IMG/VR virus record: IMGVR_UViG_3300024507_000369
Span: 62,001-126,000 of that record
Strand: one strand, 5' to 3'
Origin: a virus
Length of the DNA: 64,000 bases
The number at the start of each line of letters is the position of its first letter. Positions within the stretch are counted from its first letter, which is position 1. Below are positions 1 to 19,356 of the stretch, in pieces. The position numbers and the translations under genes are program-made. The notes below the pieces were generated by a model, which saw only the letters and a list, made by a program, of their open reading frames with translations, was not told the origin of the DNA and did no database searches.

Positions 1-1
1 A

Positions 2-262
2 GAAACTTACATTCCAAATCCAAATAATCTCCCTCAAGTTAATCACATTGATGGCGTAAAAACAAACAACAATGTCAGTAATCTTGAGTGGTGCAGTAAT
101 CAAAAAAACACGGAGTTGGCATTAGCAAAAGTTCATCGGTTAGTAACACCAACTGGAGAAATAGTAGAAGTTTTTAATCTTGGAAAGTTTTGTAGAGAAC
201 ATAAAATTGATAGGGGAGACCTTTATAAAGGGAAAAAGTCCAAAGGTTACTATTTGCAATAA
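2..262 (+). CDS. HNH homing endonuclease, 3' fragment
   Basis: Reading frame 2 is open from the left edge to a TAA at 260-262, so the start lies outside the window. The translation has the phage HNH signature VNHIDGVKTNNNVSNLEWCS, where the H and the two N residues form the beta-beta-alpha metal site, followed by a tail resembling the DNA-binding part of such enzymes (FCREHKIDRGDLYKG). It would nick or cut DNA and promote its own spread. It is on the opposite strand to nearly everything else and its stop abuts the stop of the next gene with no gap, as expected of an inserted selfish gene. Activity cannot be judged from a fragment. Confidence 0.85.
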   Translation, partial: ETYIPNPNNLPQVNHIDGVKTNNNVSNLEWCSNQKNTELALAKVHRLVTPTGEIVEVFNLGKFCREHKIDRGDLYKGKKSKGYYLQ

Positions 263-694
263 TCACCTTTTGTAAAGATATCCGGACGACCAATCTGCGT
301 TCTCAAACAACCATTCACGGTCCTTAATTAACAAGAGATTGTATCGCTCACCCTTTGCAGGACTACGCCACGACGCTGACTTGAAAACGCCTCCATTTTG
401 CTTGTCGATAAAACAGTGAACCGATCTCGATCCACCACCATTCACCAGAATGACTTTGTGATACTTTTTGCCAGTCTCAACAGTATAATCAATGTCACAC
501 TTGCCAGACTTGAGTTCATCAATCTTGCGCTGATGATACTCTTGATTATCAGCATCATTCACGAACTTTTGGTGACCGCGAATAGAATACTGACGATAGT
601 TGTCTTTCAGTGCTTCAATCAGCAGCAGAGTGTTCTTATACACATTCTCTGCAATAGTTTGTTGTGCTTGTGCTTGCATCGTAGGAGTGCTCAT
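263..694 (-). CDS. conserved cyanophage hypothetical protein (143 aa)
   Basis: The first ATG of the frame after the 28-bp intergenic element opens a 143-residue protein; a second Met lies five codons on (MSTPTMQAQ) and is the better start if transcription begins just after the TATAGT box. The protein is soluble and has no recognisable catalytic motif. It contains a Q-rich start, a helical segment (NVYKNTLLLIEALKDNYRQY) and a C-terminal half rich in aromatic residues ending GYLYKR. From memory it resembles conserved cyanomyovirus hypotheticals. Function unknown. Confidence 0.8.
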   Translation of the reverse strand: MSTPTMQAQAQQTIAENVYKNTLLLIEALKDNYRQYSIRGHQKFVNDADNQEYHQRKIDELKSGKCDIDYTVETGKKYHKVILVNGGGSRSVHCFIDKQNGGVFKSASWRSPAKGERYNLLLIKDREWLFENADWSSGYLYKR

Positions 695-722
695 ACTATA
701 GGTACACTTTCGAGGATCCAAG
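695..722 (-). promoter_or_regulatory. 28-bp intergenic element, copy 1 (promoter-like)
   Basis: Read on the minus strand it runs from CTTGGATCCTCGAAAG to a TATAGT box. It fills the whole space between the TAA of the ligase-like gene and the ATG of the next gene. The TATAGT matches a sigma-70 -10 box, with a weak -35 (TTGGAT) 15 bp upstream. Other copies are at 1641, 2212, 5565, 6649 and 10169. Confidence 0.7.
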
Positions 723-1640
723 TTACCAACTCTTTGCGATTGTGAAGTTGGCATGAGAGAATACCTCACGATCAACTACTTTGTAAGACCCAAACTTGTT
801 ATGAATGACATAACCCTCGTGGAAACCTGCAACATCCCAGAGGAAACATTCAATGTCATCCTCTTCATGAATGAACAGGAACAAATCATCCTTGATAGAC
901 TTCACCAACTTCCACAATCTGATGAGGTTGATGTCACAATCGCATTTTTCTGCAATTTCATCCTCACGGATGGTGCGTTGCTCTCGGATGCAAGCGTTAA
1001 TCTCTTTTTTGATTTGTGATGCTTTCTTGTCGCTCACAAACTCACACAGAGTGCTCATTTGTTTAGCAAAGTTACACACATCCTCCAAATCTTCACGATA
1101 AGGATTCAGCGACACAGCAGGTTGCACAAACAAACATTTCTTTGTGCTTGCAAACTTGCTAGTGATAGGATGTGCTACCATTTCAGGCAGACGCTCACCA
1201 GTGTAGTAAGTATGTGGAGCAACGATAATCTCTTGACGCACAACTTCAGGAAAACGATAGGTAATCGTGTTGGGCGTGAATGTATCCAACCCTTTACCGA
1301 AACCAATCCAATCTCCCTGATACACATTGTTAGTGCGAGGAAGATAATCCAGACAGAAGATGAGGATTTGTGCTACCCTTGGTTGTCCACCAAAATGAGT
1401 AAAGATGTCATCTTCGTTATAGCAAAGGCGAATCTTTTGCTTGTTAAATGCTGCTTTGGTGCAGACAAAAAACTTACCATTCTCAGGATTAGTGCCCCAA
1501 ACAATAGCAGGAGCACCATCCATCTTGACGCTGATAAAACTATCAACCTCAGAGAACCAATCAAGAACAGATAGATTACCCGTCAGGATTTCATCTTCAG
1601 GGTGCTCAAGGTGCTTATTTTGCATTGGTTGCTTACTCAT
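723..1640 (-). CDS. putative ATP-dependent nucleic-acid ligase / nucleotidyltransferase-like protein
   Basis: A 305-residue protein with VKMDGAPA near residues 38-45. This matches the KxDG motif of the covalent nucleotidyltransferase superfamily (DNA/RNA ligases, capping enzymes), in which the Lys takes AMP. Further motifs fit the fold: NGKFFVCTKAAFN around residue 60, and an EGYVIH motif near residue 274 like the E-G-hydrophobic motif of ligases. I infer nucleic-acid end joining or adenylation, but the substrate is unknown and it is not a close match to T4 gp30 or Rnl1. The ATG lies right after a TATAGT box; Met 6 (MQNKHLEH) may be the real start. The TAA stop touches the next regulatory element. 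Confidence 0.65.
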   Translation of the reverse strand: MSKQPMQNKHLEHPEDEILTGNLSVLDWFSEVDSFISVKMDGAPAIVWGTNPENGKFFVCTKAAFNKQKIRLCYNEDDIFTHFGGQPRVAQILIFCLDYLPRTNNVYQGDWIGFGKGLDTFTPNTITYRFPEVVRQEIIVAPHTYYTGERLPEMVAHPITSKFASTKKCLFVQPAVSLNPYREDLEDVCNFAKQMSTLCEFVSDKKASQIKKEINACIREQRTIREDEIAEKCDCDINLIRLWKLVKSIKDDLFLFIHEEDDIECFLWDVAGFHEGYVIHNKFGSYKVVDREVFSHANFTIAKSW

Positions 1641-1668
1641 ACTATAGGTACACTTTCGAGGATCCAAG
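1641..1668 (-). promoter_or_regulatory. 28-bp intergenic element, copy 2 (promoter-like)
   Basis: Same element as at 695, with GGATCCTCGAAAGTGTACC then TATAGT, directly followed by ATG. It follows the stop of the 67-residue gene by 10 bp. If TATAGT is a -10 box, the transcript would start inside the first codons and translation would begin at the second in-frame ATG, 15 nt on. Confidence 0.7.
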
Positions 1669-1678
1669 TTTCAATCAA

Positions 1679-1882
1679 TCAAACTTGCATCAGTTTAGCA
1701 AGACGATTGCGAATATCAAAGAGTTCCATTTCATCCATATCTACATCATCAAGACCTACGGGAGCAAACGCTTCAAGATCTACAGTGCCATTTTGCATAA
1801 TGGGAGAATAATATAACTCATCTCCATCTTCTTGCGACAGAGTATAGACGCAACCGTGACCAGGAACAGTGAGGAAAATCAT
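1679..1882 (-). CDS. hypothetical acidic protein (67 aa)
   Basis: The start MIFLTVPGHG was chosen because it lies 21 bp after the -10 box of a TTGCAA-17-TATTGT promoter at 1904-1932; upstream in-frame starts fall in that promoter. The protein has a short beta-like N-terminus (FLTVPGHGCVYTL) and an acidic C-terminal helix (DDVDMDEMELFDIRNRLAKL). I do not recognise a family. Confidence 0.7.
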   Translation of the reverse strand: MIFLTVPGHGCVYTLSQEDGDELYYSPIMQNGTVDLEAFAPVGLDDVDMDEMELFDIRNRLAKLMQV

Positions 1883-1903
1883 TGAAGTTTTACGAACAAA
1901 GGT

Positions 1904-1932
1904 ACAATAAAGGAGCACTTGCTAAATTGCAA
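1904..1932 (-). promoter_or_regulatory. sigma-70-type promoter embedded in a terminator hairpin
   Basis: The minus strand has TTGCAA at 1927-1932, a 17-bp spacer and TATTGT at 1904-1909. The -35 hexamer spans the loop and 3' arm of the hairpin at 1912-1939. It would drive the gene starting at 1882. Confidence 0.5.
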
Positions 1933-1939
1933 GTGCTCC
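1912..1939 (-). terminator. rho-independent terminator after the 80-aa gene
   Basis: A perfect 11-bp stem (GGAGCACTTGC / GCAAGTGCTCC) with a 6-nt loop is followed on the minus strand by TTTATTG. The stop-proximal motif AAACTGACAC (1941-1950) lies between the stop codon and the stem. Confidence 0.8.
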
Positions 1940-1950
1940 TGTGTCAGTTT

Positions 1951-2193
1951 TTATACTGCCACACGACGGGCAGATATTTGTTGTTCAATAAAGTTCAATA
2001 CTTGCTTCACATAAGGCGAAACAGTTTGAGTGAACTTCACCACATCTTCACGAAGTTTGTTGACTTCATACTGATGGATTTGCCAGCGAACCTGAATGTC
2101 TTGGAAGTATTGTTCACGAGTAATCAGTACCTGTGGGACGGACACTTCGGGAGCAACAGAGACATTAGCAGTTTGCTTGCGAGCGCGAGGCAT
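1951..2193 (-). CDS. hypothetical helical protein (80 aa)
   Basis: The start MPRARKQT is 18 bp downstream of the TATAGT box of element copy 3; the longer frame reads through the element and is unlikely. The basic N-terminus leads to a long predicted helix (REQYFQDIQVRWQIHQYEVN to LNFIEQQISARRVAV) that could form a coiled coil. Function unknown. A strong terminator follows the stop. Confidence 0.75.
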   Translation of the reverse strand: MPRARKQTANVSVAPEVSVPQVLITREQYFQDIQVRWQIHQYEVNKLREDVVKFTQTVSPYVKQVLNFIEQQISARRVAV

Positions 2194-2211
2194 AGGGTAA
2201 ATGCGTCTTAC

Positions 2212-2239
2212 ACTATAGGTACACTTTAGAGGATCCAAG
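2212..2239 (-). promoter_or_regulatory. 28-bp intergenic element, copy 3 (promoter-like)
   Basis: GGATCCTCTAAAGTGTACC then TATAGT on the minus strand. It starts one base after the TAA of the 59-residue gene and ends 18 bp before the next ATG. Confidence 0.7.
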
Positions 2240-2240
2240 T

Positions 2241-2420
2241 TTAATTCACTGGAAGTTTTGCCATTGACTTACCTTTTTTGTGGTCTGTGATATACTTTCG
2301 CGCAGAACTTTCGGTCCTACAAACTTTCTCAAGTTGCTGACCATTGTGAATGATAAGATACTGATTCCCAAACGGAATTGCAGCATATGTATCCTTGAAC
2401 ATTGTAAATCCTTCTTTCAT
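2241..2420 (-). CDS. hypothetical protein (59 aa)
   Basis: MKEGFTMFKDTYAAI opens a 59-residue protein two bases after the methyltransferase stop. It has a short beta-rich core (IPFGNQYLIIHNGQQLEKV) and a basic C-terminus (ARKYITDHKKGKSMAKL). It was probably translated with the restriction-modification pair; whether it takes part (for instance as a controller) is unknown, and no helix-turn-helix is evident. Confidence 0.65.
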   Translation of the reverse strand: MKEGFTMFKDTYAAIPFGNQYLIIHNGQQLEKVCRTESSARKYITDHKKGKSMAKLPVN

Positions 2421-2422
2421 CG

Positions 2423-3286
2423 TTACATAAACTTGGTAAGACCAACAGTTTCACTAACTCTCTTTTCAATCAATTTACCATACTCCTCGTGAAGTTCGCA
2501 TCCAACATAATTCCTTCCCAAAGATTTGGCAACAGCAGCAGTAGTCCCACTACCCATAAATGGGTCAAGAATAGTGTCACCTTCACGAGAACCAGCAATA
2601 ATACAAGGTTCAATAAGTTCTGGAGGATAAACTGCAAAGTGAGAACCTTTGTATGGTTTAGTTGTTACTTCCCATACACTACGTTTCCGTTTTAATTCCT
2701 TGCCATCTACAGTGGGTTCTTTAATCGAATCAACATCAAAATAATAGTTCTTGCTCTTAGATAAGAGGAAGATATATTCGTGAGATTTGGTACATCGATC
2801 TTTCATACTTTCGGGCATTGGATTTGGTTTGCTCCAAATAATATCCTGTCGTAGATACCAACCATCTGCACGCAAAGCAAATGCTAGCATCCAAGGAATA
2901 CCAATCAAATCTTTATCCTTTAGACCCTCAAGTTTATTTCCTCTTCTAGGATTTCGTATTTGTGGCAAATCTTGGTTGTTAGATGCCACAGATTGCTTAG
3001 GTAGTGTCTGACCTTTACCAGAACGATAGTTGTAATAAGAATCACCAATGTTAACCCACAATGTGCCATCATCTGTAAGAACATCACGCACACCGCGAAA
3101 CACCTCTACCAGTTGGGAGATAAACTCTTCAGGCGACTCTTCTAAACCAATTTGATTATCTTCGTTACCGTAATCACGCAGACCGTAGTATGGTGGAGAG
3201 GTCACACACATTTGTGCTTTTACACCAGCGTCTACAAAATGTTTAAGAGTTGAGCGGCAGTCACCATAAAGAATAACATCCTTCAT
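2423..3286 (-). CDS. site-specific DNA methyltransferase of a type II restriction-modification pair
   Basis: A 287-residue class-beta amino-methyltransferase. The catalytic motif IV TSPPYYGLRDYG is at residues 29-40 and the AdoMet-binding motif I DPFMGSGTT near residue 239, the order expected for N4-cytosine or N6-adenine enzymes; SPPY is most typical of N4-cytosine. The start ATG overlaps the stop of the upstream MvaI/BcnI-like endonuclease gene by 4 bp, so the two form one translational unit. M.MvaI and M.BcnI are N4-cytosine methylases for CCWGG and CCSGG, so a CCNGG-type site is my inference. It would protect phage DNA from the partner nuclease. Confidence 0.9.
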   Translation of the reverse strand: MKDVILYGDCRSTLKHFVDAGVKAQMCVTSPPYYGLRDYGNEDNQIGLEESPEEFISQLVEVFRGVRDVLTDDGTLWVNIGDSYYNYRSGKGQTLPKQSVASNNQDLPQIRNPRRGNKLEGLKDKDLIGIPWMLAFALRADGWYLRQDIIWSKPNPMPESMKDRCTKSHEYIFLLSKSKNYYFDVDSIKEPTVDGKELKRKRSVWEVTTKPYKGSHFAVYPPELIEPCIIAGSREGDTILDPFMGSGTTAAVAKSLGRNYVGCELHEEYGKLIEKRVSETVGLTKFM

Positions 3287-3978
3287 TCAAGAACCTCTTT
3301 TACAAACAATTTATCCATATTTGAGTGATTTATACGAAAGCAAGTGCCACGATTGCGAACACCCTTACCAGTGCCAACATTATACTGGGTTCTCAGTCGT
3401 AAGTCAATAGAAATTACATCATCTTCGATTGCCTTACGAAACAGATTTTTATCAATAGAAATGTAGACATACGCTTCATTGTAGTGAAAATACTCTATAC
3501 CATTACGAACTTCAACATCGGCAAATACTTTAACACAAGATGGAAATTTGTGAGCAAACTGTTTAATAAGTGAATCCCAATCCCACCTAACAATCTCCAG
3601 TTCTTCGTGCTTTATGGAAACATATTCATCATCAGTATGAATCCAAAATCCTCTGTTGTTTTTGGTTCTTGTCACAGTAGATTGTCCAGACAATTCCCCA
3701 ATGTGTTTTGTGTGAGGAAATCCAAAAGTTTCTAGGAACTTTAATTGAGGTATCTGCCATTCACCTTCCTTTGTAAAGAGAGTTTGTTTTCCACCAGCAC
3801 CTTTCCTTGCTGCTTTCAACTCTTTTCCATCAATATCTGGACCAGAGATACAATTCTCAGTCAAACCAAGTTCTTGTTCAAAAGTATGACCAACTCCAGT
3901 ATCACCTTTGCGATGAGACTTTATGAAACCTTTTGCTTTAATTCGGTTGTAAGCAGGAACGAACTCAACGAAATCCAT
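3283..3978 (-). CDS. MvaI/BcnI-family type II restriction endonuclease
   Basis: A 231-residue protein that looks full length for the MvaI/BcnI family (about 230-250 aa). The N-terminus (YNRIKAKGFIKSHRKGDTGV, then GHTFEQELGL) and the nuclease core GPDIDGKELKAARK at about residues 44-57 fit the family, with Asp, Glu and Lys spaced as in the D-x4-E-x-K active site; KQTLFTKEGEW follows. These enzymes nick and cut CCWGG or CCSGG as monomers. No frameshift is visible. The phage sequence itself has CCWGG sites (for example 1860, 4761 and 4790), so activity would require methylation by the adjacent methylase. Intact restriction endonucleases are rare in T4-like phages. Confidence 0.85.
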   Translation of the reverse strand: MDFVEFVPAYNRIKAKGFIKSHRKGDTGVGHTFEQELGLTENCISGPDIDGKELKAARKGAGGKQTLFTKEGEWQIPQLKFLETFGFPHTKHIGELSGQSTVTRTKNNRGFWIHTDDEYVSIKHEELEIVRWDWDSLIKQFAHKFPSCVKVFADVEVRNGIEYFHYNEAYVYISIDKNLFRKAIEDDVISIDLRLRTQYNVGTGKGVRNRGTCFRINHSNMDKLFVKEVLE

Positions 3979-4105
3979 GGTAAAATCTATACTTTAGTAA
4001 AAATCAGGAATTTGGTTGCAGTGGATGACCTATGACACCGCTGCAGTAGAATTGAAGAAAAATCAGGTTTTGACCCCTGACTGTGACTGGGTTCTTAGGC
4101 GAGAC

Positions 4106-5293
4106 TCACCGCCGCACTACACTATCAACCATCTCACCCTTCTCAAACACAGCATCAACAACTCGCTGGAGTGCTCGCTCTGTAGATACTCCAACTTTGG
4201 AATATACAGGCACCACACAGAGACCGAAGACCTTTTCTTTGCCGCCAAGGCGAAGAACCCGACCAATAGTTTGGGTCATTTCAATCACATCCATATTGCG
4301 AAGAAAGACGACCGCCTCTAGTTCGCTGACATTAATTCCTTCGCTCAAAATAGAGCGATGGAAGCAAACAAACTTCTTGTTAGGGTCACGACCCCAAGAA
4401 TTGAGCGTGTCAAAGAATACTTCACGATTGACTTTCTTACCATCAATAATCGCTCCAGTTTTTGAGGTGATGTAGAGGTAAGAATAACCACGCTGATTTA
4501 GTTGGGAAGCACAGTCAGTATGAGACATCAGGTTGATAAGTTGCTTCGCAGACTTAACACATACCAGGATTTTCTTGCAATCAATATCCTCCAGAGTGTC
4601 CATCAGATTGCTACTGTCACATTCAGCAGTTACCTGCTTTGGTGCAAGTACATCAAACTTCTTCGCTACAATCTTAGGAGCAATAATGTATCCTCCATCA
4701 ACAAGTTCAGGAGCAGAAACGCGGCAAATAATATCTCCATAGACATCACGATCGTTCATTCCAGGTTTAGAAGGAGTGAGCGAAGTCTTCCTGGTAGCAG
4801 TGAAGAAGTAGCAGCGGCGTGCATTAGCAGCAAAGTGCTCAGTTGCAGGGAAAAAGTGACGCTGAACAGAATTATGTGCCTCGTCAAAGTAAATGGTATC
4901 CACATCAACTTCTGCCACTTGAAGACGCGACAGAGAGTTGTAGGTGGTTACAATCAGGCGATGATTGTCGGCATTAGCATCAACCCAGTTGCGAATCTCT
5001 TGAGGGCGAGTAGAAGACTCGTGATGAGTTTCGCCACTGTGAACATGGAAAACAGCAGCGTTAGTGATAAACTCCAGGAACTCCGAAGACAGTTGCTCTG
5101 CCAGAAGAATACGCGGAGCAACAACAACAATGGTCTGGGGAGTTTGTGACTGCAACTCACGCAGACAATCATAGATCATCTTCAGAGTCTTGCCACCACC
5201 AGTAGGAACAATGACTTGACCTTTATCATGCTGTTGCATAGCAGCAACTCCGCGTTCTTGGTGAGGACGAAGATTGATCAGATGAGGAATCAT
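4106..5293 (-). CDS. superfamily 2 DNA/RNA helicase
   Basis: A 395-residue ATPase: Walker A PTGGGKT near residue 30, a VVAPRILLAEQL motif Ia, DEAH near residue 137, FTAT motif III, and motif VI GRVLRLGG near residue 343. It starts LRPHQERGV, the Q-tip-like entry seen in ResIII/UvsW-type helicases. It would unwind or remodel branched DNA during replication or recombination. It is shorter than T4 UvsW (587 aa), so I do not give that name. Its start is 42 bp after a TATAAT box that follows a terminator hairpin. The 127 bp downstream (3979-4105) hold no gene that I can see. Confidence 0.88.
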   Translation of the reverse strand: MIPHLINLRPHQERGVAAMQQHDKGQVIVPTGGGKTLKMIYDCLRELQSQTPQTIVVVAPRILLAEQLSSEFLEFITNAAVFHVHSGETHHESSTRPQEIRNWVDANADNHRLIVTTYNSLSRLQVAEVDVDTIYFDEAHNSVQRHFFPATEHFAANARRCYFFTATRKTSLTPSKPGMNDRDVYGDIICRVSAPELVDGGYIIAPKIVAKKFDVLAPKQVTAECDSSNLMDTLEDIDCKKILVCVKSAKQLINLMSHTDCASQLNQRGYSYLYITSKTGAIIDGKKVNREVFFDTLNSWGRDPNKKFVCFHRSILSEGINVSELEAVVFLRNMDVIEMTQTIGRVLRLGGKEKVFGLCVVPVYSKVGVSTERALQRVVDAVFEKGEMVDSVVRR

Positions 5294-5334
5294 TACGAAT
5301 TACAGAGTTTCAGGTGGTTTGGTATCTAAAAGAC

Positions 5335-5370
5335 ATTATAGCACCCTTCCTGACGCTTGGAAAGGGTGCT
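5335..5370 (-). terminator. terminator hairpin running into a TATAAT box
   Basis: GCACCCTTTCC pairs with GGAAGGGTGC (one bulge) at 5340-5370. Instead of a T tract it is followed by TATAATG at 5335-5340, with TG before it (extended -10: TGCTATAAT). It probably ends the upstream unit and starts the helicase transcript. The stop-proximal motif TTAACTGTCC is at 5374-5383. Confidence 0.6.
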
Positions 5371-5383
5371 GGCGGACAGTTAA

Positions 5384-5539
5384 TCAACCGCCAAACATTT
5401 CATCAAACAACCAATCACCAGAACGCTCTTTTTCTTCCCAGACTTTGTTAGCGTTTGCTTCAATCATTGCTCGCTCAATTTTCATGTCGATAGGAGAAAC
5501 AGTGCTGAACCAGTTACCGTTGCGGTCTTGCCAGAGCAT
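5384..5539 (-). CDS. conserved cyanophage hypothetical protein (51 aa)
   Basis: MLWQDRNGNWFSTVSPIDMK leads to an acidic helical end with WLFDEMFGG just before the stop. The ATG is 27 bp after the TATAGT box of element copy 4, and a terminator follows. The short acidic C-terminal tail ending in DEMFG is the kind of peptide used to bind a partner protein, but that is speculation. Confidence 0.75.
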   Translation of the reverse strand: MLWQDRNGNWFSTVSPIDMKIERAMIEANANKVWEEKERSGDWLFDEMFGG

Positions 5540-5564
5540 AATGTTGTTTCGTTTGAGTGCTTAT

Positions 5565-5592
5565 ACTATAGGGACACTTTAGAGGATCCAAG
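5565..5592 (-). promoter_or_regulatory. 28-bp intergenic element, copy 4 (promoter-like)
   Basis: GGATCCTCTAAAGTGTCCC then TATAGT; it has one change (GTCCC for GTACC) relative to the other copies. It lies between the 202-aa basic protein gene and the 51-aa gene. Confidence 0.7.
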
Positions 5593-5598
5593 TAAGTA

Positions 5599-6207
5599 TC
5601 AGCGAGAAGTGTATCGGTGTTGGAGGTCTTTCTCACTCTTAATGTTTTTACCTCTTTCTCTTTCTCCTGCAATTACAAGATCGCGGAGTTTCTGTTCTCC
5701 CTTTCTTGTAACATGCAATCTTTCTTGTCTGCTTAGACCAGATGCTTTTTGTGGTTTGTATCCAGGAGCGGGTTCTGCTGTTGCTTTCTTCTTAGAAAGA
5801 AGTTTAGTTGCTGCTTTTACTACTTCTTTTGCTTTTGGTTTTTCTGCTGCTGGTGCTGGTGATTCTCCACCTTTCTTAGCAGCAATTCTTGCCTGTGCTG
5901 CTTTTCTTCTTTCCTCTTTTGCTGCTGCCAGTTGTCTTTCTCTAGCAGATCCACGCTCTTGTTCTGGTTGTTGAATTTGTGAACCCTTTGGTTTTCCAAT
6001 ATCCTTGCGTGGTTTGTATTCTTTTGCTGGTTCCATTTTACCACCGCCAACTGCTTTCATACGGCGTTTTTCAGGAGTTGTCTTTTTGCGTTCAGCACCA
6101 ATACGACCGCCAGGTCTTGCTTTTCTGATTGTTGCTTGGAATCCAAGTGCTTTTGACTTGTCATCAACTTCTTCGCAAATAGACATAAACTCCTGAAAGG
6201 TTTTCAT
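5599..6207 (-). CDS. basic K/R-rich protein with putative capsid-targeting N-terminus
   Basis: A 202-residue, strongly basic protein starting MKTFQEFMSICEEVDD. This resembles the N-terminal capsid-targeting sequence of T4 internal proteins (MKTYQEFIAE), including an I-x-E motif (ICE, residues 10-12) of the kind cut by the gp21 prohead protease. The rest is low-complexity Ala/Lys/Arg/Pro sequence, typical of DNA-associated internal head proteins. I infer a protein packed in the capsid with the DNA and possibly injected. A late promoter (TCTAAATA) lies 25 bp upstream, which fits a virion protein. Confidence 0.6.
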   Translation of the reverse strand: MKTFQEFMSICEEVDDKSKALGFQATIRKARPGGRIGAERKKTTPEKRRMKAVGGGKMEPAKEYKPRKDIGKPKGSQIQQPEQERGSARERQLAAAKEERRKAAQARIAAKKGGESPAPAAEKPKAKEVVKAATKLLSKKKATAEPAPGYKPQKASGLSRQERLHVTRKGEQKLRDLVIAGERERGKNIKSEKDLQHRYTSR

Positions 6208-6231
6208 TGTTATCTAAACACTACTTTTTAG

Positions 6232-6239
6232 TATTTAGA
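6232..6239 (-). promoter_or_regulatory. T4-type late promoter (TCTAAATA)
   Basis: TCTAAATACT on the minus strand, 25 bp before the ATG of the basic capsid-targeted protein and overlapping the end of the gene upstream. It is a variant of the TATAAATA late box read by a gp55-type sigma factor. Confidence 0.55.
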
Positions 6240-6435
6240 ACTCTACTTCCTTTGCTTTATATGAACCCTTGAATACTCGTCCTTCAGTATAGAATTGCTT
6301 TACACGTTCGCGGCGAGTAGCAAGAAGCAAATCATATTCTTCTTGTTGCTGCTTAGTAAAGATAAAATCTTGACGACGCCAAGCATCTTTCAGTTCTTGA
6401 ATGTGAGGGAGCACGTTGGGGATGTGTTCAGTCAT
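6235..6435 (-). CDS. conserved cyanophage hypothetical protein (66 aa)
   Basis: MTEHIPNVLPHIQELKDAWR is followed by a second helix rich in Q, E and R. It is highly charged, helical and soluble. From memory it matches a small protein found in many cyanomyoviruses. No motif indicates its role. Confidence 0.78.
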   Translation of the reverse strand: MTEHIPNVLPHIQELKDAWRRQDFIFTKQQQEEYDLLLATRRERVKQFYTEGRVFKGSYKAKEVEF

Positions 6436-6495
6436 TTGAGAATAATAAAGGAAAAGTGTTCTGTGTGGGTGATTTGGTGGACAGTTTAGAAACTG

Positions 6496-6642
6496 TCAGT
6501 AATCATAGTTGGAGTTAAGATACTCATTAAGATTGAAGTCGTTAGATTCTTCAATGAGTTCAGTTAGATCTTTTTCAATAAAATCAAATCCATTAGATTC
6601 TTCAATTTGAATGTCATCGAAGCAGTCCATAATTTGTTTCAT
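6496..6642 (-). CDS. small acidic protein (48 aa)
   Basis: The start MKQIMDCFDDIQ is six bases after the TATAAT box of element copy 5; Met 5 would leave a longer leader. About a third of the residues are Asp or Glu, with only two Lys and no Arg, a composition seen in DNA-mimic or partner-binding peptides. No family recognised. The stop is followed by the inverted repeat GACAGTTTctAAACTGTC at 6481-6498. Confidence 0.65.
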   Translation of the reverse strand: MKQIMDCFDDIQIEESNGFDFIEKDLTELIEESNDFNLNEYLNSNYDY

Positions 6643-6648
6643 GCTTAC

Positions 6649-6676
6649 ATTATAGGTACACTTTAGAGGATCCAAG
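6649..6676 (-). promoter_or_regulatory. 28-bp intergenic element, copy 5 (perfect TATAAT)
   Basis: GGATCCTCTAAAGTGTACC then TATAAT, a perfect -10 consensus. The next gene starts 6 bp downstream. Confidence 0.72.
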
Positions 6677-6682
6677 TAAAAA

Positions 6683-6931
6683 TCAATCAATTTTTTTAAC
6701 AGATTTTGCTAACTTTTTCAGTCTCTTTGTTACTTCTTTTCCGCCACTACGCTTTACAATTAACTTATTAACTTCTTTCTTTGTTGGTTTCCCTTCTGGA
6801 CCTTCATATCTTTGAAGAGTATAAGTTTGCACACCAGTATCACTCCTCTTGTAAGTTCCAGGAACTGCTTGAGGTGGAGTGTCTGGTCTTTTTGCTTCGC
6901 AGATTTCGTAGAACTCTCTAAATGTTAGCAT
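6683..6931 (-). CDS. basic small protein with putative capsid-targeting N-terminus
   Basis: An 82-residue protein starting MLTFREFYEICEAKRPD. It shares the pattern M-x-T-F-x-E-F-x-x-I-C-E with the 202-residue protein at 5599, including the I-C-E site for a prohead-type protease. The mature part is basic, ending KRLKKLAKSVKKID. It probably belongs with the internal head proteins. It lies one base downstream of the 214-residue gene, so the two are likely co-transcribed from the late promoter at 7598. Confidence 0.6.
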   Translation of the reverse strand: MLTFREFYEICEAKRPDTPPQAVPGTYKRSDTGVQTYTLQRYEGPEGKPTKKEVNKLIVKRSGGKEVTKRLKKLAKSVKKID

Positions 6932-6932
6932 T

Positions 6933-7577
6933 TTATCCTAATTCTCCCATTGCTTTTTGCTTACGAAGTTTCTTAGGATTCTTCGTCTTATCTGCAGAGT
7001 AGTTATTATCATCCTCATTATCAGGATCTACAGCACTACGATGTCTCGTGCGTCTTTCTTCATCATCCATATTTGCACGACTTCTCTTTGCTTCATCTGG
7101 AGAATATCTTCTACCACTGTTATACCATTCCTTACCTACATGACCTCTCTTCTCAGCATCAGCAGAAGCAGATCTCCTCTTATTCTTCTGACGATTTGCC
7201 TTGAAGTCCTTCATAGTCATTCCTTCAGCAATCATAATACTCTCTCTCCACTCTTCACTCATATTCCCCATAATTGCCGTTGCTGCTTGTTCAGTATCAG
7301 CATATCCTTCATCAAGAAGGTGCGAAAGAATGATGTCGTATAGGTCATAATCCTCAACATATTGTGAACGATATTTGCCACCTGTTTTTTTATGAGTATC
7401 TTCAAGTTCTGCTGCTCTTGCGTCAGCATACTTTCTACTCTTTACTGGTTTACCAATCTTCTTCTCTTTCTTTCCATCAGGAGAACCCATTACTTGATAT
7501 GGCATCTCATCAAGTTGCTGGTTTTCAACAACTTCCATATATGCTTCTTGAAGATTGCGAATGTCTTGAGCGTCCAT
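6933..7577 (-). CDS. charged protein, possible internal head protein (214 aa)
   Basis: MDAQDIRNLQEAYMEVVENQ begins a 214-residue hydrophilic protein. The N-terminal 'NLQEAYMEV' helix recalls the start of other cyanophage virion-associated proteins. The second half is a disordered K/R/D/E-rich segment (KNKRRSASADAEKRGHVGKE, later RRTRHRSAVDPDNEDDN). The middle has DYDLYDIILSHLLDEGYAD, which looks like a small folded helical unit. An AATAAATA late box is 21 bp upstream. Probably a virion protein; function unknown. Confidence 0.6.
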   Translation of the reverse strand: MDAQDIRNLQEAYMEVVENQQLDEMPYQVMGSPDGKKEKKIGKPVKSRKYADARAAELEDTHKKTGGKYRSQYVEDYDLYDIILSHLLDEGYADTEQAATAIMGNMSEEWRESIMIAEGMTMKDFKANRQKNKRRSASADAEKRGHVGKEWYNSGRRYSPDEAKRSRANMDDEERRTRHRSAVDPDNEDDNNYSADKTKNPKKLRKQKAMGELG

Positions 7578-7597
7578 CTTATGAATAACTTTTTAGT

Positions 7598-7605
7598 TAT
7601 TTATT
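7598..7605 (-). promoter_or_regulatory. T4-type late promoter (AATAAATA)
   Basis: AATAAATAACTAAAAAG on the minus strand, 21 bp before the ATG at 7577. Confidence 0.6.
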
Positions 7606-7606
7606 G

Positions 7607-7897
7607 TTACTCAAACTCAAGGGGTTTATTTGCAACTCTCATAGGTGGAGTTTGATATTCTGGCATACTAGAAGTTTCAACAAATACTTCTATCTTAGTC
7701 TCATCATTCCAATGTCGAATTGCATTAGCGATAATGAAGCAGTTGGTAATAAAAATGCTCAAAAACATCAAAAGGCGGATAAGTGCTACCTTATCCGCTT
7801 CTTTATCACATTTACTTGCTTTTTCTCCAAGTGCCTTAGCAAGCAATCGCCAGACAGTTCTGTTCTTCTTCATATCTTGATTTTCTTGATTTAACAT
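7607..7897 (-). CDS. small membrane protein (96 aa)
   Basis: Conserved-looking cyanophage protein with a basic N-terminus, a K/E-rich segment (ALGEKASKCDKEADKVA) and one hydrophobic helix (LLMFLSIFITNCFIIANAI) at about residues 43-61, then a soluble tail. Met 9 (MKKNRTVWRLL) is an alternative start. The frame overlaps the upstream gene by about 60 bp (38 bp with the later start), unusual here, so one of the two starts may be wrong. A perfect hairpin lies inside the coding region at 7772-7800. Confidence 0.7.
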   Translation of the reverse strand: MLNQENQDMKKNRTVWRLLAKALGEKASKCDKEADKVALIRLLMFLSIFITNCFIIANAIRHWNDETKIEVFVETSSMPEYQTPPMRVANKPLEFE

Positions 7898-8099
7898 ACT
7901 TTAAATGTTTCCAATCTTCTTTATAACAAACAACAAGCAATCTTTCATTTGCGTGAATGGGGCAGGCGTGATAGTTTACTTGGTCTTTAGGACGAACAAC
8001 ATACTCAATCGTAACATATTCGTCATCCCTAAAATAAACCCAACCTTCAACACCTTTTGTCCATTCAACATAATCATTGACTTGTGGTTTGTATGTCAT
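7836..8099 (-). CDS. conserved cyanophage hypothetical protein (87 aa)
   Basis: MTYKPQVNDYVEWTKGVEGW starts a small beta-rich protein with repeated VYF/VTIEYVV strands and a Cys-His pair (YHACPIHANERLLVVCY). The final 20 codons overlap the next gene. From memory similar proteins are common in cyanomyoviruses. Its ATG overlaps the stop of the upstream gene by 4 bp. Confidence 0.78.
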   Translation of the reverse strand: MTYKPQVNDYVEWTKGVEGWVYFRDDEYVTIEYVVRPKDQVNYHACPIHANERLLVVCYKEDWKHLKYVKSRKSRYEEEQNCLAIAC

Positions 8100-8377
8100 A
8101 CAAAGAACGCATCCAATGGAGACTGCTTGATAGGCATTGCTGAATAGTTTCGCGTGTCGTTGATATTTACACGAGCACCAACTGTCTTACTATTGATTGG
8201 GGCAAAGTATTCTCTGGTCTTGGATTTGTAGAATCCCCAGATTGTCCTTGTGGGAGCACCATTATTGTAATCAAACTTACGATTGCAATACAACCATATA
8301 GCAATAACTCCACGCTTGAACTCTTCGAACTCATAATAATAATTTTCGGGTGCTTTATGCGGAAACTCAGCAATCAT
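8096..8377 (-). CDS. conserved hypothetical protein (93 aa)
   Basis: Start MIAEFPHKAPENYYYEF was chosen because it overlaps the end of the coiled-coil gene by 11 bp, the usual arrangement here; a longer frame to 8467 would overlap it almost fully. The protein is beta-rich with many aromatic residues (GVIAIWLYCNRKFDY, TIWGFYKSKTREYFAPI). Function unknown. Confidence 0.75.
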   Translation of the reverse strand: MIAEFPHKAPENYYYEFEEFKRGVIAIWLYCNRKFDYNNGAPTRTIWGFYKSKTREYFAPINSKTVGARVNINDTRNYSAMPIKQSPLDAFFV

Positions 8378-8534
8378 AGAACTTGTCACGCGACATATAC
8401 TCAATTTGTTTCTGCAGTTGTGAGATTTCGTGTTCTTGTTCTGCAATTTTACTTTGCAGTTGTTCAATACGTTCTTGGTACTGTTTCTTCAAATCAAACA
8501 CCATTTTATTGGTGTGAGTAACGTGGTGAGTCAT
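8367..8534 (-). CDS. small coiled-coil protein (55 aa)
   Basis: After MTHHVTHTNKMVFD come about 30 residues of heptad-patterned sequence (KKQYQERIEQLQSKIAEQEH) ending in SRDKFYDC. The start overlaps the upstream stop (TGATG). Likely a small oligomer or adaptor; no specific role can be assigned. Confidence 0.72.
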   Translation of the reverse strand: MTHHVTHTNKMVFDLKKQYQERIEQLQSKIAEQEHEISQLQKQIEYMSRDKFYDC

Positions 8535-8776
8535 CAGGTTGTAAAAGATTCAACTACTGCAGATTCTACATCCTCAGCAAGCGCATAAGTCCTCGCGCTT
8601 AACACATTTTCACGAAGAGTAGTATAGTGTTGCTCATAAAAATTGTCAGAATCTTCTGCAGAAATCAAATCAAAACATTCATTGTCGTTTTCCGCAATCA
8701 CATTCCAAAGTCCACCGTATTCACTGGACGGAAAAGGAATGTAGTGGTCAACGATGTAAAGAAACTTTTGTGCCAT
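8534..8776 (-). CDS. conserved cyanophage hypothetical protein (80 aa)
   Basis: MAQKFLYIVDHYIPFPSSEY is followed by an acidic helical C-terminus (SARTYALAEDVESAVVESF). The N-terminus reads like a beta strand, turn and helix. It is the first gene of a tight overlapping run extending left to 7.6 kb. Confidence 0.75.
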   Translation of the reverse strand: MAQKFLYIVDHYIPFPSSEYGGLWNVIAENDNECFDLISAEDSDNFYEQHYTTLRENVLSARTYALAEDVESAVVESFTT

Positions 8777-8808
8777 TTGTCTTTGTAAATTACCTCTTAA
8801 GTTTAAGA

Positions 8809-8901
8809 TTAGTTGTCGTTATTGTCAATGTCGGAAGCAACTATAAAAGAAACTCCTACAGTCAAAAGAATACCGATTCCCATACCAAGAATAAAAGTCA
8901 T
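8809..8901 (-). CDS. single-span membrane peptide (30 aa)
   Basis: MTFILGMGIGILLTVGVSFI forms one hydrophobic helix, followed by the acidic tail VASDIDNNDN. The start overlaps the upstream TAA (TAATG). Tiny cyanophage membrane peptides of this kind are common; function unknown. Confidence 0.6.
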   Translation of the reverse strand: MTFILGMGIGILLTVGVSFIVASDIDNNDN

Positions 8902-9038
8902 TAGTAAAACTCAGCGAGATAGTAGTCAACAGTTACCTCAAGTTTCGCTGCTTCACGCTCAACTTCTTTCCAGAACTCTTCTGCTACTTTGTCCATTTCT
9001 GCTTGTTTAATAAGGTCACGGAGTCGTTTGGGGATCAT
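8901..9038 (-). CDS. small helical protein (45 aa)
   Basis: MIPKRLRDLIKQAEMDKVAE leads to a charged amphipathic helix ending TVDYYLAEFY. The ATG lies in the stop region of the upstream membrane peptide gene. From memory it matches a conserved cyanophage mini-protein. Confidence 0.7.
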   Translation of the reverse strand: MIPKRLRDLIKQAEMDKVAEEFWKEVEREAAKLEVTVDYYLAEFY

Positions 9039-9160
9039 TTGGATTTCTCCTTAAGTTTTGCTTCTTCGCGTGAATACATTACCTTTAAGTAATATAGCAT
9101 AATGGAGGATACAAATGCAACCAGTGCTGCGTAGATTGCTACACCGAGTACAATACTCAT
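9035..9160 (-). CDS. single-span membrane peptide (41 aa)
   Basis: MSIVLGVAIYAALVAFVSSI is a transmembrane helix; the C-terminal half (YLKVMYSREEAKLKEKSK) is basic and charged, so it should face the cytoplasm. It overlaps genes on both sides by 4 bp. Confidence 0.65.
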   Translation of the reverse strand: MSIVLGVAIYAALVAFVSSIMLYYLKVMYSREEAKLKEKSK

Positions 9161-9315
9161 CTGATTTCTATAGAGGGTGGTTTCTTGAGATTCTCTATTG
9201 CCTTAGAGCGATAGTAAGCATCATACATTTTGTCATCACGCTGGATTAGAAAGACATTCCAACCAAGAATAACTGCAAAACCAATCAATCCAACAACAAT
9301 GTACTTTTTGTTCAT
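9157..9315 (-). CDS. single-span membrane protein (52 aa)
   Basis: MNKKYIVVGLIGFAVILGWN is a signal-anchor helix with a positively charged start, followed by a soluble tail (DDKMYDAYYRSKAIENLKKP). It is co-translated with the SPFH-like gene upstream by a 4-bp overlap. Confidence 0.65.
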   Translation of the reverse strand: MNKKYIVVGLIGFAVILGWNVFLIQRDDKMYDAYYRSKAIENLKKPPSIEIR

Positions 9316-9719
9316 TTGCTCATTTGAAGAGTAGGAACAGGCATACCACCTTCGGTGGGAACATAGATGGTCACATTACCTTTGTTAGATCCTTCTTCAA
9401 GACCAGTAATGTAAAGATACTGAAGATACTCACGGTTGTCCTTCAGACTATCACCAATGATTTGGTTTGCCTTAGCAACACCAGTAGCACGGATGATTTC
9501 AGCATCAGCAAGTTGTTGAGCACTATCTTTCTTTGCTTGTGCTTCAAGAACTGCTACCTGACGAGTGTATTCTGCTTTTTGCAACTCTGCTTTACCAGCA
9601 AGAGATTGCTGCCACACATTATATTGTGGACCACCAATAAAGATGAGACCACCAATCACAACCACACCGACAGCAATAGCAGCAACAGCAGGGTCAATAA
9701 ATCCGTTTTGTTGTTTCAT
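9312..9719 (-). CDS. SPFH/prohibitin-like membrane protein (135 aa)
   Basis: An N-terminal transmembrane helix (VAAIAVGVVVIGGLIFIGG, residues about 12-30) is followed by YNVWQQSLAGKAELQKAEY and an Ala/Gln/Glu-rich coiled coil with AEIIRATGVAKANQIIGDSL. This is the hallmark C-terminal part of SPFH (prohibitin/HflC/stomatin) proteins; the globular SPFH core is missing, so it is a short form. It may form membrane assemblies or act on host FtsH-type proteases; that is inference. Three tiny membrane proteins follow in the same run. Confidence 0.7.
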   Translation of the reverse strand: MKQQNGFIDPAVAAIAVGVVVIGGLIFIGGPQYNVWQQSLAGKAELQKAEYTRQVAVLEAQAKKDSAQQLADAEIIRATGVAKANQIIGDSLKDNREYLQYLYITGLEEGSNKGNVTIYVPTEGGMPVPTLQMSK

Positions 9720-9736
9720 AATAATTTACCTAAGAA

Positions 9737-10150
9737 TTAAACAGCAAGCGCAGCAGAGGGGATTTCAATCACTTCAGGAAGTTTTTGTTCATAACAATTC
9801 ATATTGTAGCACACCCATTCACCGTTGCGGAAGACATAGGCATACTCTTCACCATTAGCAGGCAGAAGATACTCACACAAATCAGCATCAAGACGAGGAG
9901 GACAATCATCGTTACGATAAGAATAATAGTTGGGTCCATAAACACCCTTCACTGCACTATCATTCCAGCGGTCATCAGTCCAGCAGCAAGACATATCACC
10001 ACCATCAATCAAGTCAGCAACTTTCTGACGAGTGTTGTAATGAGTGTTCAGGATACGACCCAACCATTCAGGATAACCATCCCAGTGGTGATACACAGAG
10101 AGAATAGAACCATTCTTAAGTTCAAGACCGATTCGTGCTCGGGTGGACAT
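9737..10150 (-). CDS. conserved phage hypothetical protein (137 aa)
   Basis: MSTRARIGLELKNGSILSVY, then HHWDGYPEWLGRIL, a Cys/Trp/Asp region (GGDMSCCWTDDRWND) and a C-terminus ending IEIPSAALAV. The arrangement is characteristic of a family widespread in myoviruses, with no known function. The ATG is 18 bp after the TATAAT of element copy 6, with no obvious ribosome binding site in the short leader. Confidence 0.85.
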   Translation of the reverse strand: MSTRARIGLELKNGSILSVYHHWDGYPEWLGRILNTHYNTRQKVADLIDGGDMSCCWTDDRWNDSAVKGVYGPNYYSYRNDDCPPRLDADLCEYLLPANGEEYAYVFRNGEWVCYNMNCYEQKLPEVIEIPSAALAV

Positions 10151-10168
10151 TTCAAGTTTGTTGCTTAC

Positions 10169-10196
10169 ATTATAGGTACACTTTAGAGGATCCAAG
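10169..10196 (-). promoter_or_regulatory. 28-bp intergenic element, copy 6 (perfect TATAAT)
   Basis: GGATCCTCTAAAGTGTACC then TATAAT. It begins directly at the TAA stop of the Dam gene (TAACTTGGATCC), with no spare bases. Confidence 0.72.
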
Positions 10197-11048
10197 TTAG
10201 TAAACTGCTATGAGTTCACTTGCTTTTTTCCTACTGCCGCCTTTTGCAGCAATCGTTCTAGTTACTTGAATTTGATAGATTGTAGCATTTTTGTAGAGTT
10301 CTCTTGTAATAGGAACATCGTGATTTGATACAATCACTTTGATACCTTTAGATGAAAGAGATTCTGCAAGTTGTGCTAACTGAACTTGTTGGTCAGAAGT
10401 AAATCCATCAGTCGCATAACTTGTGAAATTTGCAGTATTTGATGCAGGAACATACGGTGGGTCAAAGTAGACAACATCACCTGCTTCCAAATCCTCATAC
10501 AGAGATGAATCTTCAAAAGAAAGTGATGTGAACCTCACCAATTGTTTGGATAAGAAATACATCCTGAAGTTCATCATTTCCTCTCTGGGAAAGTAAGCAC
10601 TTTGTATTTCTTTCTCCCCAGTATCCTTATTTACAACTTCTCTACCATAAGGAACATTAAACATTCCTTTGCTATTATATCTTGATAGTCCATTAAAACA
10701 GTGCTTATTCAAATAAATGAATAACCTTGCTCTCTCTGTAGTATCTGTTGCTTGATTGAAGTGCTCTCGCAACTCCAAATATACTTCTCTTGTATTATTC
10801 TCTGGCGTGAATAGTTCTTCGCAGTATTGAATGAAACTATCATCATTTGGATTTACCAAATTCTGATAGATTGCTACCAAATCCTTATTCACATCGTTGA
10901 GGATATATTGCTGTGCTGGTGTATTCAAAGCAACAGCAAGACTACCACCAAAGGGTTCACAATAACGCTTTGGATAACCAATATGGGGAATAAGATGGGG
11001 CAGAACTCTTGTTTTATTGCCAGCCCATTTAAGAAAAGTTTTGTTCAT
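10197..11048 (-). CDS. dam: Dam-type DNA adenine N6-methyltransferase
   Basis: A 283-residue D12-class methylase, full length for the family. KWAGNKTRVLPHL at residues 7-19 and EPFGGSLAVAL near 31 form the AdoMet site, NDVNKDLVAIYQNL follows, and the catalytic DPPY is in VVYFDPPYVP near residue 197. T4-like Dam enzymes methylate the A of GATC. It would protect phage DNA or alter gene expression. It is transcribed from its own strong promoter (11055-11082), whose predicted start falls at or next to the ATG, implying a nearly leaderless mRNA. Confidence 0.93.
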   Translation of the reverse strand: MNKTFLKWAGNKTRVLPHLIPHIGYPKRYCEPFGGSLAVALNTPAQQYILNDVNKDLVAIYQNLVNPNDDSFIQYCEELFTPENNTREVYLELREHFNQATDTTERARLFIYLNKHCFNGLSRYNSKGMFNVPYGREVVNKDTGEKEIQSAYFPREEMMNFRMYFLSKQLVRFTSLSFEDSSLYEDLEAGDVVYFDPPYVPASNTANFTSYATDGFTSDQQVQLAQLAESLSSKGIKVIVSNHDVPITRELYKNATIYQIQVTRTIAAKGGSRKKASELIAVY

Positions 11049-11054
11049 TGGATA

Positions 11055-11082
11055 AGTATAGCATAAAAAAGAGGGTTGTCAA
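11055..11082 (-). promoter_or_regulatory. strong sigma-70-type promoter for dam, overlapping a terminator
   Basis: TTGACA (11077-11082), a 16-bp spacer, TATACT (11055-11060) with an extended TGC before it. The -35 sits in the hairpin GGGTTGACAACCC. Only six bases separate the -10 from the dam ATG. Confidence 0.75.
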
Positions 11083-11085
11083 CCC
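11066..11085 (-). terminator. terminator hairpin with T tract
   Basis: GGGTT GAC AACCC then TCTTTTTTATG on the minus strand, 10 bp after the stop of the 54-aa gene. The stem is short but the T tract is good. Confidence 0.6.
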
Positions 11086-11094
11086 CCCAGAAAC

Positions 11095-11259
11095 TCAACC
11101 ACCCTTTTCTCTCAAACTTCGCACAAGATACTCAGTAAATTGCTCCATCTTCTCAGGAACTACAGCAGCAGGGCGTTGATTGATTACATTTTTAAGTGCA
11201 GTCATTTCATTAAACTCTTCGTCTGTAAGTTTTTTATTTCCCTTTGAAGGAAGAGTCAT
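11095..11259 (-). CDS. conserved cyanophage hypothetical protein (54 aa)
   Basis: The start MTLPSKGNKKLTDEEFNEM was chosen for its GGGAG ribosome binding site eight bases upstream; an ATG at 11286 adds nine residues but sits too close to a CTTAAATA late box. The C-terminus (VPEKMEQFTEYLVRSLREKGG) is helical and basic. It resembles a short conserved cyanophage protein of unknown role. Confidence 0.72.
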   Translation of the reverse strand: MTLPSKGNKKLTDEEFNEMTALKNVINQRPAAVVPEKMEQFTEYLVRSLREKGG

Positions 11260-11296
11260 AAGTTTTGCTCCCGTGATTATGTCCATATCCTAACAC

Positions 11297-11304
11297 TATT
11301 TAAG
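11297..11304 (-). promoter_or_regulatory. T4-type late promoter variant (CTTAAATA)
   Basis: CTTAAATAGTGTTAG on the minus strand, upstream of the 54-residue gene. The near-identical CTTAAATAGTAGTAG is at 27296. Confidence 0.5.
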
Positions 11305-18541: not shown

Positions 18542-18542
18542 T

Positions 18543-18716: not shown

Positions 18717-18737
18717 CGGTTTGTTTGTTATGAAGTC

Positions 18738-18743
18738 ATTATA
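18738..18743 (-). promoter_or_regulatory. TATAAT promoter box for the 11.7-18.7 kb run
   Basis: Perfect -10 TATAAT preceded by TTG, right after a terminator hairpin. No convincing -35 is visible at 16-18 bp. Confidence 0.5.
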
Positions 18744-18746
18744 CAA

Positions 18747-18772
18747 CCAAAAGGAGCACCTGTGGGATGCTC
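18747..18772 (-). terminator. terminator after the 187-aa gene
   Basis: GAGCATC/GGTGCTC stem with loop CCACA (one G-U pair), then CTTTTGGTTG. The stop-proximal motif TAAACTGGCAC lies at 18775-18785. Confidence 0.65.
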
Positions 18773-18792
18773 TTGTGCCAGTTTAGAAAGTG

Positions 18793-19356
18793 TCACTTGT
18801 CGTTCCAAGTAAAGTCAAGAAGTAGCTTAGTAAAGTATCTCACAATCACATTTGGTTTCTTTTCCAGATACACTTTGATGTTTGGTTTGATGTCCCAGTA
18901 TCCTACCACATCTTTACCAATTCTAAATTCTGTAGTCCAATCTACAGCACTGCTCACACCAAGAGTAGAACAATCTAAATTACCTACTGTAAGTCTGACT
19001 GGGAATTGTCCGTGTTCCTTCGCATACTTAAAGTTCTCAATAATTCTATTGAACTTTTGATTGTAGTAATACTCTTGATGACATTTGAGTTCAGCAAACT
19101 TATGCTTGATACTCTCAATATGTTTATCAATCTTCTCATCAAACTCTTGTGAGATTTCTTCTAATGACTTGCGTGGTAGTTCAAATTTGATTTCTTGTGC
19201 TTCGTTTGGAATTGTGAAGTATTCTTTGAGGAGTTCATACTTTTCGTGGTCTTCTTCAGCATAAGAATACAAATTCATACACTCAAAGACATTCTTTACA
19301 TCTGTGAGTGTTTTGATTTTACTTACATCTAATTTATGGTTTAATGGTTCAATCAT
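18793..19356 (-). CDS. hypothetical protein (187 aa)
   Basis: MIEPLNHKLDVSKIKTLTDV, a long charged helical middle (FDEKIDKHIESIKHKFAELK) and a conserved-looking end (GYWDIKPNIKVYLEKKPNVI then RYFTKLLLDFTWNDK). The C-terminal block resembles the tail of several cyanophage hypotheticals. Function unknown. Confidence 0.7.
   Translation of the reverse strand: MIEPLNHKLDVSKIKTLTDVKNVFECMNLYSYAEEDHEKYELLKEYFTIPNEAQEIKFELPRKSLEEISQEFDEKIDKHIESIKHKFAELKCHQEYYYNQKFNRIIENFKYAKEHGQFPVRLTVGNLDCSTLGVSSAVDWTTEFRIGKDVVGYWDIKPNIKVYLEKKPNVIVRYFTKLLLDFTWNDK

Follow-up and report, generated by a model that had tools for sequence, protein, structure and literature searches.

The window analysed here, a 64,000-nucleotide stretch of DNA, covers positions 62001-126000 of the 144,882-base virus record IMGVR_UViG_3300024507_000369 (hereafter G000), the gene content of which is of the T4-like cyanophage type. 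It carries six copies of a short intergenic element, ACTTGGATCCTC[TG]AAAGTGT[AC]CCTATA[AG]T[AG]T, all on the minus strand, the strand that codes for the genes across the element-bearing part. The element is real, widespread and early-promoter-like, and it consists of a constant half and a half private to each lineage. We consider it fairly probable that the copies act as promoters for early genes of a T4-like cyanophage, their upstream word being read by a putative phage-specific factor. Judged from the sequences compared, the private word appears as the firm and surprising part of the finding.

The element in the window and its record

In their 31-bp form the copies lie at 693-723, 1639-1669, 2210-2240, 5563-5593, 6647-6677 and 10167-10197, all on the minus strand. 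A search of the window with the 17-mer TTGGATCCTCNAAAGTG, allowing up to three mismatches, returned exactly these six sites, each with no mismatch. They are not due to chance, since none of 100 shuffles reached six matches (mean 0.85, largest 4). Positions within the element are given below as indices counted from the C of CTAAAG, which is index 0; copies 1 and 2 read CGAAAG here.

A first-pass annotation of the window had described six copies on the strand of the genes, each between a stop and a start, and all were recovered where it had placed them; the box reads TATAAT at 6647 and 10167 and TATAGT in the other four copies. Its conserved intergenic element stands, but the proposed size of 28 bp does not: 31 bp are nearly exact, and the element reaches about 37 bp with a weaker end, RTRAGC. 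That the copies occur only in the first 10 kb is true inside the window and is partly an edge effect, as G000 has seven full copies at 60969-72197, on one strand throughout, the seventh (G000:60969) falling just outside the window. The contig G001 has 14 copies; G000 and G001 are near-identical to each other, and both are possibly fragments. A further core-like site at G000:129801, which has no word, we take as chance.

A constant half and a private word

The constant module, CTAAAGTGTNCCTATARTRTRAGC, extends from index 0 to about 25 and is common to many phages. Directly upstream of it, at index -11 to -2, stands a 10-bp word that is lineage-specific and near-identical within one genome: mostly [AG]TTACTCACC in SynMITS9220M01 (M01), AGGGGGGTCG in S-SM2 and ACTTGGATCC in the window phage. 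The first-pass annotation was correct that the whole sequence is conserved, but it missed that the upstream half differs between phages while being nearly uniform within each.

Among 79 contigs with at least three copies, the words differed at 0.58 of 11 positions within a contig and at 5.81 of 11 between contigs, whereas the flanks at -29 to -19 were unrelated in both comparisons (7.27 of 11 positions differing within and 7.75 between). Removal of near-duplicates and of contigs then left with fewer than three copies gave a de-duplicated set of 57 of 120 contigs and 317 of 523 copies, holding 28 words. In this set the mean within-contig word distance was 0.58 of 10 positions, compared with a permuted mean of 5.52, and none of 1000 permutations was as low; all copies were within one base of the consensus word in 43 of the 57 contigs. 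When 78 contigs were searched for their own word with up to one mismatch, 456 places were found, and the constant half followed (up to five mismatches) in 452 of them. The conservation profile quoted below is that of these 452 copies, in which the word positions are biased upward by the way the copies were selected.

Occurrence in other viruses

The full element was found in 21 stretches from 12 IMG/VR contigs and the constant half in at least 118 stretches; the two scans together reached at least 118 different viral contigs. With up to three mismatches, the cultured phages M01 and S-SM2 gave 11 and nine matches, respectively, all forward and none reverse, and S-PM2 and Syn9 gave none; the first 20 kb of S-PM2 likewise yielded no copy. 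S-B05 showed two scattered matches at this threshold, together with a divergent version that the pattern misses, TTACTCACC at 12 places within 20 kb with TATAGT next to it in nine. The earlier suggestion of a phage-spread promoter or factor-binding site was in the right area, and the absence from other phages that would have refuted it was not observed: the element stands upstream of genes in an early-type region in many of them, cultured isolates included. The overall interpretation given in the first-pass annotation is partly supported.

In S-PM2-type early promoters an inverted repeat, TG[AC]CA[GC]TT..AACTGGCACA, is located about 29 bp upstream of TATAAT. Syn19 and S-MbCM6 (L305, L306) each contain a single core-like site that lies, by eye, inside such a repeat, with a -10 box of S-PM2 type downstream, and apparently is the right arm of that repeat; this hints at a possible relationship between the sites AAAGTGTCCC and AACTGGCACA.

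Words and gene phylogeny

Word distance correlated hardly at all with the distance between proteins of the gene family downstream of copy 2 (rho 0.11; 61 contigs, 27 words) or between helicases (rho 0.05; 58 contigs), and it appears almost independent of the phylogeny of the neighbouring genes. In contig L064, several proteins are 80-92 % identical to those of the window phage and others much less so, down to about 35 %; its word GTTAGGATCG occurs 14 times, with the constant half attached in 13, and ACTTGGATCC does not occur. The picture is one of genes apparently passing from phage to phage and of a word that stays uniform in each genome, from which we infer selection by a word-reading factor. 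Along about 16 kb the sequences of G000 and G001 agree to 99.7-100 %, after which their early modules differ. The G000 module at 51900-59930 has no copies and its counterpart in G001 has seven further ones, a difference that may come either from a module exchanged in nature or from a chimeric assembly.

The location of the copies in the plastic early region, the G000 and G001 modules with and without elements, and the near-independence of word and gene phylogeny would also suit a recombinational or mobile repeat, similar to the PeSL modules of T4-type phages, that is homogenised by gene conversion and needs no sequence-specific factor. Conversion, however, should homogenise neighbouring positions alike, and in the 57-contig set the within-contig distance over ten variable positions of the constant half was 2.04 of 10, against 2.88 after permutation, while that of the adjacent word was 0.58 of 10, so the copies have not simply been converted as blocks. 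Identity falls to 0.70 at index 1 and the flanks are not common to the copies. We therefore regard a repeat of this kind as improbable.

Start codons and the start of transcription

Under the promoter reading, each copy would combine the constant module with a genome-specific word and be transcribed by the host RNA polymerase from about index 18-21. The box, TATAAT or TATAGT at index 12-17, would then end 0-3 nt before the start and would not be a sigma-70 -10 hexamer; the mRNA would be leaderless where an ATG adjoins the box and otherwise carry a leader of about 15-20 nt.

Both arrangements occur in the window. As had been noted earlier, the first ATG behind the box adjoins it in copies 1 and 2 (0 bp) and is separated from it by 6 bp in copy 5. 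In copy 1 (687..723, minus strand; word ACTTGGATCC at 723-714, constant half from 712), the ATG at 694 directly follows TATAGT, a second in-frame ATG is at 679, and the gene downstream is 263-694 (DUF7717). In copy 2 (1633..1669, minus strand), the ATG at 1640 likewise directly follows TATAGT, with a second in frame at 1625; the gene, 723-1640, encodes a DUF6267 protein of a family named T4-GC 71 in other cyanophages. The first ATG behind copy 3 (2204..2240, minus strand) is at 2193 (index 36; gene 1951-2193) and that behind copy 4 (5557..5593, minus strand) at 5539 (index 43), opening a gene of 51 amino acids. Copies 5 and 6 have the TATAAT form. Copy 5 (6641..6677, minus strand) is followed by ATGs in the same frame at 6642 (index 24) and 6630 (index 36; gene 6496-6630), and copy 6 (10161..10197, minus strand) by the first ATG of a long open reading frame (ORF) at 10150 (index 36). 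The copy 6 gene, 9737-10150, has 82 % DNA identity with an S-PM2 gene labelled T4-GC 66.

The sets of 384, 365 and 372 copies used for start-codon and terminator counts differ in the flank lengths required. For 365 copies we located the first ATG that opens an ORF of 40 codons or more; it was at index 18 in 146, at 19-32 in six and at 33-44, most often 36, in 127. An ATG was present at index 18 in 154 copies, and that frame was open in 146 of them, compared with none and six for the other two frames. The 384-copy set contained 164 copies with an ATG at index 18, of which 58 had a second in-frame ATG 15 bases on, 22 had one 18 bases on, and 45 were open but showed no further in-frame ATG over the stretch examined.

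Leader lengths were compared with those of S-PM2-type promoters, for which 48 pattern hits were obtained and 35 kept, 13 having no start codon; four of the 35 have negative offsets that are probably spurious, and some of the contigs are near-duplicates. With the start placed 6 nt past the -10, 26 of the 35 hits had leaders of 14-20 nt. For the downstream ATGs of the present element, and assuming equal leader lengths for both promoter types, the best-fitting start was index 20, i.e. 2 nt past the box (log likelihood -473); the values were -481 for index 19, -485 for 21, -504 for 18, -684 for 24 and -700 for 13. In 12 other isolates (a set that excludes AG-345-O18, a carrier of the present element), the copy 2 gene family showed, by our reading, a -10, 6 nt and the ATG in five (P-SSM2, S-SSM7 and Bellamy, less clearly S-CREM1 and S-BM3), and a leader of 14-17 nt in six; S-SKS1 was ambiguous. 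The two modes, no leader or one of about 15-20 nt, fit a start at index 18 or slightly beyond it. An RNA start 0-3 nt past the box seems to us well argued but unproven. Neither TATAGT, TAGTRT nor TAAAGT (index 1-6) was favoured as a -10 by start-codon positions and leader lengths, and the idea of a hairpin within the element was given up on visual inspection alone.

It is unlikely, although it has to be taken seriously, that the copies are ordinary host sigma-70 promoters in which TATAAT/TATAGT or TAGTRT is the -10, transcription starts 6-7 nt downstream and the conservation reflects recent copying. Two copies do have a perfect TATAAT, S-SRM01 has TATACT-GTAAGC upstream of the copy 2 gene family, and in the 452-copy profile TAGTRT (index 14-19) is strongly conserved (T14 0.99, A15 0.96, T17 1.00, T19 0.93), with an A at index 24 at a frequency of 0.77. 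A sigma-70 scan, on the other hand, gave no hit on the minus strand at the six copies, and no -35 hexamer with a 16-18 bp spacer was found, the positions concerned varying between phages. The interpretation of TATAAT/TATAGT as a -10 box in the first-pass annotation is doubtful, because an ATG adjoining a box at -12 to -7 could not be transcribed, and precisely this ATG opens the gene in the 146 of 365 copies mentioned above. In 45 of the 164 copies the frame is open and no second ATG in that frame was seen within the stretch examined, and two copies of this kind follow a detected terminator. The leader-length fit at index 24 is poor, and the genome-private words are left unexplained.

Several points weigh against the promoter reading, with its start next to the box, and should be set beside it. 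Where a -10 hexamer would be expected for such a start, none can be recognised. The cyanobacterial -10 is TANNNT, which TAGTRT resembles, and this favours a conventional start near index 26. Index 18 fits 32 log units worse than index 20, and index 20 is also best (-1151, compared with -1270 for index 18) when the index-18 copies are included, although the reference set has few or no leaderless cases; because index 18 fits less well than 20, the sigma-70 explanation is slightly raised and the promoter reading slightly lowered. The copies are not independent, as the same gene families recur across phages. In 14 of the 57 contigs at least one copy departs from the consensus word by two bases or more, and contigs L062, L072 and L111 each have one copy bearing the word of another lineage. 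The term early, finally, is drawn from where the copies lie in the genome and from the gene families, not from expression.

Terminators, polymerases and candidate readers

The search for intrinsic terminators gave one ahead of the word in 12 of 372 copies, a count that comes with no background rate. The T-run of the terminator begins 11-18 bases before the word in ten of the 12 and 36 bases before it in two, and seven of the 12 have the box-adjacent ATG. In these 12 copies transcription must restart at or near the element. The other 360 copies have no detected upstream terminator, so read-through transcripts are possible there, and this, with the way the element abuts start codons, is what an RNA-level element of the 5' untranslated region, i.e. 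a translation or processing signal in place of a promoter, would have in its favour. The terminator-preceded copies, the variable distance to the start in copies with no ATG at index 18, and the lack of any Rfam match in window positions 1-20000 make such an element very improbable.

In having CTATAG beside the inferred start and a constant block of that size, the element may resemble T7/SP6-type promoters. A promoter for a T7-like single-subunit RNA polymerase is nevertheless largely refuted, and we give it hardly any credence: searches with PF00940 and Syn5 polymerase queries (E up to 10) found no such polymerase in any of five element-bearing records (M01, S-SM2, S-B05 and the near-identical, possibly fragmentary G000 and G001), whereas the positive control, the Syn5 polymerase, was recovered at 4e-77. 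The host RNA polymerase is therefore the default for the early-gene promoter that we favour.

Under the same reading the word would be bound by a phage-specific, putative factor, either an activator or a repressor, that co-evolves with it, so that the early genes would answer to their own factor. A comparison of protein distance with word distance, for families present in at least 12 contigs (122 overlapping ones merged to 59, some of them spurious frames), gave no credible word-binding factor among the 59 families screened in these partial contigs, which also counts against a dedicated reader. The outlier, with a rho of 0.88 in 12 contigs, was a 67-residue acidic protein of a family of 67-72 residues found in 150 cyanophage records (M01 37474-37677; window 13130-13348, minus strand). 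Its members in M01 and S-B05 are 89 % identical, above most families compared. It was rejected as the word factor, its carriers Sf-FS3 (87 % identity), Syn19 (81 %) and S-CAM9 (79 %) having 0, 1 and 0 core matches at up to three mismatches. In a follow-up, a core match was present in four of 80 loci, singly in three, although many of the loci may not reach the early region. We judge the correlation to be a small-sample artefact. A 204-residue protein with a C-terminal MazE/AbrB-like domain (PF04014; window 11755-12369, minus strand), which has partial relatives in S-SRM01 and P-SSM2, was also rejected, as it was not found in M01, S-SM2 or S-B05. Gene-content comparison left 47 frames that are common to four element-bearing genomes and absent from Syn9 and S-PM2.

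Neighbouring genes and other repeats

Among the early genes, a DNA methylase (PF01555) adjoins an MvaI/BcnI-family restriction endonuclease (PF15515) at window positions 2423-3978 (minus strand), forming a phage-encoded restriction-modification pair. A D12-class adenine methyltransferase (PF02086) is located at 10197-11048 (minus strand), just upstream of copy 6. Several related words, ACTTGGATCC, GTTAGGATCG and GTTATGATCG, contain GATC, and with this methyltransferase nearby, methylation of the word is conceivable.

Repeats of other sequences were seen in two further phages. S-SRM01 has eight exact copies of CTCGACGAG (L149:13731-16404), and S-SKS1 has five copies of TCTTATAAA, head-to-tail with 22 bp spacing, in a gap between annotated genes (L147:4112-4200).

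Comparison with known systems

Early promoter elements of T4-like cyanophages are already known. Doron et al. in 2016 reportedly described a new element of early regulation in the phages Syn9 and P-TIM40; it is possibly the S-PM2-type promoter, which both phages carry, although the report may cover more. No description of genome-specific early-promoter words in cyanophages was found in the literature searched, subscription papers being outside its reach. According to a 2010 review, cyanomyoviruses have no homologues of alt, mod, motA and asi, and their early and middle control was called unclear (PMC2984593).

If the lineage-specific promoter half is what it appears to be, it would point to an undiscovered regulator and would explain how shuffled genes come under the control of the recipient phage; the word may be likened to each lineage's own address code. 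More speculatively, lytic T4-like cyanophages may use a private promoter code, in which a constant core initiates with no sigma-70 -10 hexamer and a fast-evolving phage factor recognises a 10-bp word; each lineage would then control its own early genes alone, and co-infecting relatives would be neither served nor silenced. We hold this wider idea tentatively. The element is directly testable in the cultured phage M01.

The S-PM2-type early promoters resemble the present element in the kinds of genes downstream, in a similar initial sequence (RTNANC) and in leaders of about 14-20 nt, with apparently none in a few cases. They differ from it in that their upstream motif is much the same across the phages looked at, whereas the word is genome-specific, and in having a clear TATAAT-like hexamer six bases before the inferred start, which the present element lacks. 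By inspection, their inverted repeat is not at the six copies; it occurs once elsewhere in the window, in a promoter-like site at 18717..18795 (minus strand) consisting of the inverted repeat TGACACTT..AACTGGCACA, TATAAT, 6 nt and a further 15 nt, followed by the ATG at 18716 of a 57-residue ORF.

The PeSL modules, said to go back to work by Arbiol in 2010 and Comeau in 2014, are likewise promoter modules of early type that recur in the plastic parts of T4-like genomes. They join a promoter to a terminator stem-loop, whereas here a terminator was detected upstream of 12 of the 372 copies. The passage that presents them as modules of T4-type phages made of promoter and stem-loop does not mention genome-specific words (PMC4503421).

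In the sense of many short sites with a private sequence, a further parallel is offered by the stoperators of Cluster A mycobacteriophages, numerous short asymmetric sites, mostly in one orientation and with a genome-specific motif (PMC6550527). The present element shares with them several copies per genome, a single orientation and a genome-specific sequence. Stoperators, however, are bound by a known temperate-phage repressor, and their divergence follows genome and repressor distance (PMC6550527), whereas the word is fused to an apparent promoter and hardly follows gene phylogeny. If the promoter reading is right, the word would represent operator-type divergence, familiar from temperate phages, in phages that are regarded as lytic.

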